Shown here in pieces: positions 36,697 to 39,622 of a stretch of DNA of 64,000 bases. Numbering within the stretch: position 1 is the first letter of the stretch; every line of letters starts with the position of its first letter. Below the pieces are notes generated by a model. It was not told the origin of the DNA. It ran no database searches and saw only the letters and a list, made by a program, of their open reading frames with translations. A program made the translations under genes and the position numbers. Source of the DNA: Bacterioplanes sp. (GTDB taxonomy: Bacteria; Pseudomonadota; Gammaproteobacteria; Pseudomonadales; Oceanobacteraceae); contig JACUUC010000006.1 in the NCBI GenBank assembly GCA_014859445.1, positions 1 to 64,000 on the forward strand, in the 5' to 3' direction.

Positions 36697-38307
36697 ATGA
36701 ATAGAGAAAGAAGACGCGTATTGTCGGGAAAATACGTGCGTGACGCAAATACTGGATTGCTTGTGAACTTAACCTCTGAATTGCTCGTACGCGGCCATCG
36801 CTTACTGCGCTTATACAGCTATTACTCGTTATTTTTGGCGTTGTTATTGATATTGGTGAACAGCGTAGACACCGGACGCGCCATCATCGGTAGCCATCAT
36901 GCCATGCTGTTTTCCATAACGGTGGCCGTGTATGTCTTTTGCGCCAGTGTGTTTGTCGTTGTTGCCAGTCGCAATCCCGATGTCGAGCTCGCCACCAGCT
37001 ACGTCTTTATTGAAACCGCCTTATTGGCACAACTGATGTTTGCCAGTGGCGGCCTTGACTCCGGATTTTCGAGTTTGTTGCTGATTCCAGTCGTGATTGC
37101 GAACTTACTGACACCCGGTGTGCTCGGCTATGCCGTAGCGGCTTGGACAGCCCTCGCCATCATGTTCTGGCAACATCTATGGCCAGAGCATTACCACACC
37201 CCCGACTTGGTGAATGCTGGAACGTATGGATTCCTATGCTTTCTTTTGGCAGGACTGACGCAAGCCCTATCTCGTCGGTTAAAAAGTGCGCTGCAATTGG
37301 CCAATCAACAAAGCCAACGATTAAAGCGCTTGCAAAAACTCAGCCGTCAAGCCGTCATGGACCTTCCTTATGGGATGGTTGCCTGCGATCAAGAACAGCG
37401 AGTGATTTTTGCGAATGAGGTTGCGATGCAACATTTTGTGTTGCAAGAAGGAAAGCCGCTCCCCGACCGTTTATGTTCTCTGCGAGCACAGTTTACCATC
37501 GAACATGATCATCAACGCTGGAACGTACGCCGCCAACCGCTGAACGACCAAAGCGGTGATGCCTTATTACTGATTGAAGATGAGGCACGAATCGCCGCTC
37601 GTGCGCAGCAACTCAAATTGGCCTCACTGGGGCAATTAAGTGCCAGCATTGCTCACGAAATCCGTAATCCACTCAGTGCCATGCGACATGCCGCACAGTT
37701 ATTGGCCGAAACGTCTTATCTAGCAACAGAGGAACAGCAGTTAACACGCATGATTGAACAACACAGCATGCGCATCAATCGTACCATTGAAGACATGCTG
37801 CAACTGGCTCGGCGGCGCCCAACCGACATTGGCATGATCGCTTTGCCAGCATGGTTAGAGCGTTTTCAAGAACACTTCCGTAGTCGCCACGATACCATTT
37901 CACTCAAGTGGACACTGCATTGCGACCCCAGCCTATGTATTCGTTTTGATGCCCACCAACTTGAACAAGTACTAGAGAATTTATGCAGCAATGGACTTCG
38001 CCATGCTCGGCAGGCCAATCCCAACAGCCCACGCCTTACCATACAAGCCAGAGCGTTATCCAATCGTCGTGTACAAATTGATGTCATTGATAATGGCAAC
38101 GGCGTTAGTGAAGAACAGCAAGCGCACTTATTTGAGCCTTTTTTCACTACCGAACAGCAAGGGACGGGGCTGGGTTTGTACTTGTGTCGCGAATTGTGTG
38201 AAGCCAATCACGCCAATATTCACTATCATTTCTTGAATCAAGGCAGTTGTTTTCGCATTATCGCCAACCACGCCACTCCCGAATCTTTATTACCTGTGAC
38301 ACAGTGA
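36697..38307 (+). CDS. pilS: Sensor histidine kinase PilS
   Basis: This 536-residue kinase has about six membrane helices (residues 42-195), a PAS-like linker (about 215-300), a HisKA domain with SIAHEIRNPLSAMRHAAQLL and an intact ATPase domain: N-box ENLCSNGLRHA, G1 DNGNGV, F-box FEPFFTT, G2 GTGLGL. It lies between bamD/nadE and a PilR-like gene, as pilS does in Pseudomonas, where PilS/PilR control pilin (pilA) transcription. The exact start is uncertain because the ribosome-binding site is weak. pilR follows after 7 bases. Confidence 0.92.
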   Translation: MNRERRRVLSGKYVRDANTGLLVNLTSELLVRGHRLLRLYSYYSLFLALLLILVNSVDTGRAIIGSHHAMLFSITVAVYVFCASVFVVVASRNPDVELATSYVFIETALLAQLMFASGGLDSGFSSLLLIPVVIANLLTPGVLGYAVAAWTALAIMFWQHLWPEHYHTPDLVNAGTYGFLCFLLAGLTQALSRRLKSALQLANQQSQRLKRLQKLSRQAVMDLPYGMVACDQEQRVIFANEVAMQHFVLQEGKPLPDRLCSLRAQFTIEHDHQRWNVRRQPLNDQSGDALLLIEDEARIAARAQQLKLASLGQLSASIAHEIRNPLSAMRHAAQLLAETSYLATEEQQLTRMIEQHSMRINRTIEDMLQLARRRPTDIGMIALPAWLERFQEHFRSRHDTISLKWTLHCDPSLCIRFDAHQLEQVLENLCSNGLRHARQANPNSPRLTIQARALSNRRVQIDVIDNGNGVSEEQQAHLFEPFFTTEQQGTGLGLYLCRELCEANHANIHYHFLNQGSCFRIIANHATPESLLPVTQ

Positions 38308-38314
38308 GAAACGC

Positions 38315-39622
38315 ATGAGCCAACTAACCGCCCTCATTATTGATGACGAACCGGATATCCGAGAGCTTATTGCCATCACGCTGCAACGCATGGATTTGCA
38401 CTGCTACCAAGCGGGCACCGTTCGCCAAGCATTGAATTTGTTAAAAGAGCGTCGCTATCACTTTTGCATCACCGACATGAAACTGCCAGATGGACATGGC
38501 CTGGATTTGATTCAATTGTGCAATCGCCAATACCCCGACATGCCCATTGCCATGATTACCGCATTCGGCAATATGGATTTGGCGATTTCAGCCATGAAAA
38601 CGGGGGCCTTTGACTTTGTTGCCAAACCGCTGGATATCGAACGCTTACGAGAATTGGTGAACGCGGCACTGGCCTTAACCAAAGTGCCGGTCAATATCAA
38701 CAGTTTGCCCTCAAAAGATGTCCTTATTGGTGACACGCCGATCATGATGTCGCTAAAACAACAATTGCATAAAGTAGCCCGTACTCAGGCGCCGGTCTGT
38801 ATTCAAGGCCCCAGCGGTAGCGGGAAGAATCTTGTTGCGCAATTACTGCATCATCAAAGCTCTCGGGCAGATCATGCCGTCATCACCGTTGATTGCCAAC
38901 ACTTGGCTCGCCAACAAGAAATGACGTTTGAGTCCTTGTTACAACAAGCAAAATCAGGCACGTTGATTTTGCACAATATTGACGCACTCACAGCCGACTT
39001 ACAGGCACAGTTACTGACCTTACTTCAGCACAATCCACTGCATCCAAATGGCCAAACAAGAGATGTTCGTCTCATCAGCAGCAGCCAACGGAATACCGAA
39101 CAACTTTTGGCAAATGGTATTCGACAAGATTTGTTGCTGCACCTCAATGTCGTACAGCTGCAGCTACCCGCCTTGAGCGAACGACGCGCAGACATTCCGT
39201 TATTGGCTCAGCATTATCTGAATAAATACGCCGACGAATGGGACATGCCCGTGTTACCCCTTAGTAGCAAAGCATTGGATGCGTTATTAACACACCCTTT
39301 CACGAACAATGTGCACGAATTAATCAACATCGTACAGCGCGCGTTTAGTTTGGCAGAGGGCGACAAAATTGAGCTTAACGACCTGCAGCTGACGCCCAAC
39401 ACATCGACCATCAACACCGTATCGACTGACAGCAACGACGAAACAAGCCCGATCGTGCCCAAGGAAATTGCTAATTTAGAAGCGTATTTAGAAAACATTG
39501 AACGTCAGGCGATCACCAACGCATTATCAGCCACACGCTGGAACAAAACCGCCGCCGCGGAAAAACTGGGCATCAGCTTTCGTGCGTTACGATATCGCTG
39601 TAAAAAATTGGCCATCGACTAA
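38315..39622 (+). CDS. pilR: PilR-like response regulator with degenerate AAA+ domain
   Basis: This 435-residue protein has an intact receiver (IIDDEPD, phospho-Asp in ITDMKLPDG, Lys in AKPLD) and an intact C-terminal Fis-type helix-turn-helix (NKTAAAEKLGISFRALRYRCKKL). The AAA+ middle is degenerate. Walker A is GPSGSGKN (165-172), but the GAFTGA sigma-54 loop is missing, with about 15 residues lost before GTLILHN (215-221). The Walker B Asp-Glu is His220-Asn221, the Arg of RxDLYYRL is His276, and the Arg of GNVREL is His334. It should bind DNA under PilS control but probably not activate sigma-54. The pilS context supports the name. Confidence 0.85.
   Translation: MSQLTALIIDDEPDIRELIAITLQRMDLHCYQAGTVRQALNLLKERRYHFCITDMKLPDGHGLDLIQLCNRQYPDMPIAMITAFGNMDLAISAMKTGAFDFVAKPLDIERLRELVNAALALTKVPVNINSLPSKDVLIGDTPIMMSLKQQLHKVARTQAPVCIQGPSGSGKNLVAQLLHHQSSRADHAVITVDCQHLARQQEMTFESLLQQAKSGTLILHNIDALTADLQAQLLTLLQHNPLHPNGQTRDVRLISSSQRNTEQLLANGIRQDLLLHLNVVQLQLPALSERRADIPLLAQHYLNKYADEWDMPVLPLSSKALDALLTHPFTNNVHELINIVQRAFSLAEGDKIELNDLQLTPNTSTINTVSTDSNDETSPIVPKEIANLEAYLENIERQAITNALSATRWNKTAAAEKLGISFRALRYRCKKLAID

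Follow-up and report, generated by a model that had tools for sequence, protein, structure and literature searches.

Loss of the sigma-54 contact loop in PilR regulators of Gammaproteobacteria is matched by loss of the -24/-12 promoter at pilA

The pilS-pilR locus and the degenerate AAA+ domain

The window analysed here, a 64,000-nucleotide stretch of a Bacterioplanes sp. genome (contig JACUUC010000006.1), carries pilS (36697-38307) directly upstream of pilR (38315-39622), followed by a minor-pilin/PilY1-like gene cluster; pilS, pilR and all the PilR features described below lie on the plus strand. PilS is a six-TM sensor kinase with 6TM_PilS, HisKA and HATPase_c domains, in agreement with the initial annotation, which had considered it fully intact. 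The pilR frame runs without interruption along its full length and encodes a response regulator of 435 residues that, according to the reading frame, Pfam matches and the orthologue alignment, is devoid of the sigma-54 machinery. Its assignment as a PilR orthologue is supported by the adjoining pilS with its 6TM_PilS domain, by the pilus genes alongside, by clustering with the PilR proteins of the family, by the conserved receiver and HTH domains and by the absence of a better candidate in the genome. The genome itself is a 2.89-Mb draft in 73 contigs and belongs to the family of Thalassolituus, Oceanobacter, Bacterioplanes and Oleispira. No relative was found among viral contigs. A PilR-like regulator with 40% identity is encoded on an 88-kb plasmid of Legionella adelaidensis (NZ_LR134421.1:23712-25049).

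The layout of the protein is that of the NtrC class. Pfam identifies a receiver (Response_reg, residues 7-115, 38333-38659, E-value 2e-26), an AAA+ domain (Sigma54_activat/Sigma54_activ_2, residues 138-287, in a core taken as residues 137-287, 38723-39175), a lid domain (AAA_lid_14, residues 289-360, 39179-39394) and a Fis-type HTH (HTH_8, residues 392-432, 39488-39610). The receiver keeps D11, D54, T82 and K104, and the view that both the receiver and the DNA-binding domain are intact is thus upheld. The AAA+ core is degenerate. The PF00158 match is split into two stretches with model columns 64-87 absent, and in the orthologue alignment a 15-column gap (QEMTF-gap-ESLL) stands where relatives have FGHxKGSFTGAxxxKxGFF, so that the L1 loop with its GAFTGA motif is missing at about residues 199-206 (38909-38932). 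The 50 residues between Walker A and the GTL segment, initially judged to be about 15 fewer than in NtrC, are by alignment some 15-16 fewer than in relatives. Walker A (GPSGSGKN, residues 165-172, 38807-38830) is intact, whereas the former Walker B segment reads GTLILHNI (38957-38980; D220H, E221N) instead of the GTLFLDEV of relatives, and Gln has replaced the His of sensor I at position 258. R252 is intact. In the R-finger segment RQDLLLH (39122-39142) R270, the leading Arg of FRxDLYYR, is kept, and R276 has become His; the sensor II Arg of GNVREL is likewise His (H334, NNVHEL, 39314-39316). The alignment and the residue table therefore confirm the loss of GAFTGA and each of the substitutions at positions 220-221, 276 and 334 that had been read from the sequence. 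By the criteria of a sigma-54 activator (group I bEBP), this PilR meets the one for Walker A, fails the one for a GAFTGA L1 loop and, owing to H220, N221, Q258, H276 and H334, also fails the one for Walker B, sensor and R-finger residues of ATP hydrolysis, of which R270 is kept. It does meet one criterion of the sigma-54-independent Rhodobacter capsulatus NtrC/VpsR type, namely NtrC-class layout with a defective GAFTGA.

The fold prediction that had been proposed as a search for a remaining loop revealed none. In the AlphaFold model, built from 38 sequences (mean pLDDT 88.7), the AAA+ domain still folds, with most of its core at a pLDDT of about 90, and the helix at residues 194-199 leads straight to that at 205-212. 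A Foldseek search with this model placed NtrX and NtrC1 on top by E-value; the highest query TM-score among the matches listed belonged to VpsR, which is itself devoid of GAFTGA. The window protein shares with intact relatives 72% of its receiver residues and 89% of those in the HTH region (residues 386-435) but only 43% of the AAA+ core, compared with 73-83% for the AAA+ core among the intact relatives themselves. The dN/dS ratio of the degenerate AAA+ domain is 0.03-0.04 in three close species, and judging by this ratio the domain remains under constraint (purifying selection).

The cell as a whole has not given up sigma-54. The rpoN gene is still present, together with six intact sigma-54 activators besides PilR, one of which is NtrC (above the NCBIfam cut-off), and for this reason we rejected the idea that the organism has lost sigma-54. 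The search for a second, intact PilR, which had been recommended along with that for rpoN, returned none in this genome, the other activators being only 30-35% identical. The cell very probably continues to use sigma-54, with PilR as the exception, which places the change in PilR and pilA.

Recurrent loss of the L1 loop

Most PilR proteins of the family have GSFTGA or GAFTGA and GTLFLDEV. However, the L1 loop is also absent from PilR of two further genomes, G007 and G063, and from a clade that includes Thalassolituus maritimus and Oleibacter (G001, G008, G013, G018, G028 and G060). Outside the family, it is missing in Microbulbifer and in a Kangiella MAG. Altogether, the degenerate set comprises 18 PilR proteins, one per genome, and 67 intact ones served for the comparison of residues. 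Low-scoring PilRs of ten other families of the order (f37, f13, f43, f25, f46, f39, f18, f6, f42 and f45) were considered as degenerate and rejected, as they turned out to be intact and merely divergent. The 32 genomes concerned were picked mostly by a low PilR score, so the fractions do not estimate prevalence.

Using a tree based on PilS, the receiver and the HTH, with the AAA+ domain excluded, we found that the distribution of L1 loss corresponds to six independent changes, each forced by well-supported branches: four in the family of the window genome, one in Microbulbifer and one in the Kangiella MAG. Bootstrap trees of the family also require four separate losses. The window genome is sister to Bacterioplanes sanyensis, which has an intact PilR (support 99/96), and G063 is sister to G032, again with an intact PilR (100/100). 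The question whether relatives had suffered the same losses, raised at the outset, can thus be answered in the affirmative for L1.

Other residues have fared unequally. The AAA+ residues of our conservation table are invariant in the 67 intact PilRs. Among the 18 degenerate ones, D11, D54, T82, K104 and the Walker A Lys are kept in all and R270 in 17, while the Walker B Asp is lost in 9, the Walker B Glu in 10 and the sensor I His in 16. Such a pattern would fit a protein that binds ATP and oligomerises without hydrolysing it. Because the Walker B DE pair is still present in G063 and in most degenerate Microbulbifer PilRs, the comparison suggests that the L1 loop was lost earlier than the ATPase site decayed.

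The upstream region of pilA

The PF00114 profile gave no pilin match, and the pilin gene was located next to pilB instead. In the window genome pilA adjoins pilB on another contig (C28; locus L130:6346-6828, to which the L130 coordinates below also refer). A -24/-12 promoter precedes pilA in nearly all intact-PilR genomes examined. Upstream of pilA, intact genomes of the family have -24/-12 elements such as AGCTTGGCACACTCTTCGCACTGTCA, whereas the window genome has AGCTTGGCACACTGCCTTCACTGTCG: the -24 hexamer TTGGCA is kept (L130:6252-6257) and the -12 GC has changed to TC (L130:6266-6267). Other lineages have lost the element in their own ways, through GC to TC in G063, G to C in the T. maritimus clade, altered spacing in G007 and GG to GC in Microbulbifer. 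Within the latter genus, the promoter is present in 3 intact species and absent from 8 degenerate ones. A sigma-54 activator would be expected to have a target with -24/-12, and at the orthologous position of pilA this is not the case. The caveat is a weak -24/-12-like site in the window genome (TGGCCAATTTTTTGC, L130:6092-6107) at -253 from pilA, which scores 24.7 (p=0.01 against shuffles), is placed outside the distances at which intact promoters occur and is not evidently matched in relatives.

The best sigma-54 score at pilA ranges from 18.7 to 24.7 in degenerate and from 22.7 to 29 in intact genomes (Mann-Whitney p=1.4e-7, not corrected for phylogeny). In phylogenetically independent pairs, a test resting on six events, the degenerate member is without the promoter at the orthologous position in 6 out of 6 (p=0.031); when the pairs were scored blind, 5 agreed, none disagreed and 1 showed no difference, the last because of the -253 site. 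The association is not without exceptions: Dasania has an intact PilR yet a weak pilA promoter (22.7), and in several intact-PilR genomes the -12 element reads GT or GA. Within the 64-kb window, sigma-54 sites are no more frequent than expected by chance (33 versus 34.5). In another Bacterioplanes genome (G006, L190), a gene for a large spermidine-synthase-like membrane protein lies between pilA and pilB and sets pilA apart, and the sigma-54 promoter of pilA is kept.

What replaces the -24/-12 promoter is less clear. Upstream of pilA in the window genome no sigma-70 -10/-35 pair passes the scan, and within the family, degenerate genomes show no clear advantage over intact ones in the -10-like hexamers that follow TTGGCA. 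The idea that TTGGCA has been reused as a sigma-70 -35 element is attractive, the hexamer being kept also in a genome without PilR (G033, below), but only suggestive: the -10 scores give it no support. We also observed that the 8 degenerate Microbulbifer species share a new pilA core, which in most of them reads TTGCGC-N18-TAT[TC]GTAA, stands in place of -24/-12 and does not occur in the 3 intact species (upstream regions L195, L196, L271, L273-L275, L277 and L278). A further element, CTTGC-N14-(A)AGCTTGGCA (L130:6232-6257 and its family counterparts), is kept whether PilR is intact, degenerate or absent.

Further upstream, nearly all intact genomes have a dyad TGACA-N5-TGTCA (typically TGACAATATTTGTCA) about 90-160 bp from the -24 box, mostly matching at 10/10 positions. 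An earlier reading of it, TTGTCA-N5-TGACAA, was a shifted version of the site that failed in the window genome and was abandoned in favour of the present one, which fits nearly all genomes. All 18 degenerate genomes keep the dyad at 9-10 of 10 positions and at about unchanged spacing to the old core, approximately 115 bp in the family and 125 bp in Microbulbifer. In the window genome it reads TGACCTTTTTTGTCA (L130:6137-6151), precedes the old -24 box by about 115 bp and lies downstream of the -253 site. In the family alignment, retention in degenerate genomes amounts to 92% for the dyad bases and 100% for TTGGCA, against 55% for the background and 42% for the -12 GC. A family member with a 95%-complete genome (G033, L164) has pilA-pilB and pilus genes but no PilR, and there the dyad is lost (7/10 positions, no better than shuffles). 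The -12 element is also gone in G033, and TTGGCA is kept, with a CTTGC box 19 bp upstream. As degenerate genomes retain the dyad and the PilR-less genome has lost it, we take it to be the presumed PilR site, although binding is inferred from conservation alone. Dyad sites within the 64-kb window show no excess over chance, so the argument about the PilR target depends on pilA. PilR sites of Pseudomonas aeruginosa have been described as NifA-like TGT-N11-AGA plus GTCT elements (PMC6058289), and the dyad resembles them only loosely.

Possible mechanism and relation to known systems

The coupled change of PilR and pilA points to a single gene switch having been rewired repeatedly. In its classic form, PilR controls pilA together with sigma-54 (PMC6058289). 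We consider it likely that PilR of the window genome has ceased to work through sigma-54 and, as a response regulator bound to an enhancer, serves a non-sigma-54 promoter of pilA. The best reading is that it is controlled by phosphorylation and probably binds ATP without hydrolysing it, like R. capsulatus NtrC; DNA binding, the use of sigma-70 and the sign of regulation are all inferred. In such a scheme, PilS would phosphorylate PilR, and PilR-P would oligomerise, probably in an ATP-bound state, and occupy the dyad. Through DNA looping it might then recruit or stabilise RNA polymerase with the housekeeping sigma factor (sigma-70) at a pilA core promoter that has been rebuilt. R. capsulatus NtrC is reported to act in this manner. 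The missing sigma-70 consensus would, by inference, fit a weak, activator-dependent promoter. As to the order of events, the L1 loop and the -12 element would have gone first, as G063, which diverged recently, and Microbulbifer show, with Walker B and other ATPase residues decaying later. The proposal of the initial annotation that PilR has become a DNA-binding switch of pilus genes independent of sigma-54 is, in the absence of bench data, supported by the recurrent loss of L1, the matched loss of -24/-12, the retained presumed enhancer and purifying selection.

The same annotation allowed for a repressor, and this alternative, while not excluded, seems unlikely to us. PilR might act independently of sigma-54 as a repressor or dual regulator that lowers pilA expression from the same dyad, pilA being otherwise driven by a constitutive promoter. 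GAFTGA-less NtrC proteins can indeed repress (Caulobacter NtrC represses itself as well as hvyA and sciP; PMC10274813), and activation by the window PilR has not been demonstrated. However, the distance of the retained site from the old core, in the family as in Microbulbifer, is unusual for an operator; the site has the position of an enhancer, which makes repression the less likely role. In addition, the feedback logic of PilS, which activates when pilin is low (PMC6058289), would need to be inverted.

Slightly less probable still is simple decay, with pilA now constitutive and PilR heading for loss as in pathogenic Neisseria, in which Npa is truncated and pilE is on sigma-70 (PMC6528607, PMC6755734). 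G033, having neither PilR nor the -12 element, speaks for such a process. Nonetheless, the identity of the receiver and HTH to those of intact relatives, the dN/dS of about 0.04 even in the degenerate AAA+ domain of three close species, the catalytic receiver residues kept in 18 of 18 and the dyad that persists in every degenerate genome and is lost from G033 all speak against a protein on its way out.

It is quite improbable that sigma-54 still acts at pilA, with the degenerate PilR joining a different activator in mixed hexamers, or serving it as a docking protein, at the -24 box that remains or at the weak -253 site. The means are available, considering RpoN, the six intact activators, the fully kept TTGGCA and the score of the -253 site. 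Against this, each lineage has lost the promoter by different changes, the -253 site is upstream of the dyad and apparently private to the window genome, and TTGGCA is kept even where there is no PilR. Finally, an error of sequencing or assembly, or a pseudogene whose frame was restored, is conceivable in a draft of this kind but can be practically dismissed. The same loss, accompanied by pilA promoter changes, is seen in five other lineages, in genomes from other projects (single-contig G007, T. maritimus DSM 24913, Microbulbifer); the pilR frame is uninterrupted, several separate substitutions are among the changes, and the promoter change sits on another contig.

Extending the likely rewiring of PilR to the other lineages, we regard it as probable, albeit with somewhat less assurance than for the window genome alone, that PilR-controlled pilin promoters were converted several times from sigma-54 to another form of polymerase by loss of L1 and of -24/-12. 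The distal enhancer and the two-component input would have been kept, PilR turning into a catalytically dead, ATP-binding enhancer switch. Annotations of PilR as 'sigma-54-dependent' are then likely wrong in these lineages. GAFTGA-less relatives of sigma-54 activators have been known one by one, and the joint exit of a regulator and its promoter has until now been hard to study. At least six escapes on a known tree, with close intact sisters, the early-stage G063 beside G032, the contrast within Microbulbifer and G033 as a PilR-less control, allow both the mechanism and the sequence of events to be tested directly. Our literature search, which left most subscription journals outside its scope, returned no report of GAFTGA loss in PilR or of repeated loss with a retained enhancer.

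The system shares with PilS-PilR of P. aeruginosa and its relatives the pilS-pilR order beside minor pilin genes, the REC-AAA+-HTH layout and a presumed pilA target with a distal enhancer, and its HTH is nearly identical to that of family orthologues. Unlike classic PilR, the regulator has neither GAFTGA nor Walker B, and the -12 element is gone from its presumed target. In the Nps-Npa/RpoN system of Neisseria, the pilE promoter depends on sigma-54 in commensals and on sigma-70 in pathogens (PMC6528607, PMC6755734); there, the regulator of N. meningitidis is truncated and RpoN is atypical, whereas the window genome keeps the regulator, its presumed site and RpoN. A defective GAFTGA in an NtrC-class protein is also found in TyrR, DhaR and HupR, for which the accompanying loss of sigma-54 dependence is established, and in VpsR of Vibrio cholerae, for which it has been proposed (PMC3162934). 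These proteins respond to other signals and have other targets, and the cited papers do not describe recurrent losses with a retained enhancer. R. capsulatus NtrC has no GAFTGA either; it works with sigma-70 and must bind ATP but need not hydrolyse it (PMC10274813). Like the PilR described here, it and Caulobacter NtrC are NtrC-class response regulators with a deleted L1; these two NtrCs act at sigma-70 promoters. However, they are nitrogen regulators of Alphaproteobacteria, of which the Caulobacter protein appears to need Walker B, whereas the present case concerns PilR of Gammaproteobacteria, where the loss occurred several times independently and is paired with a change of the promoter.
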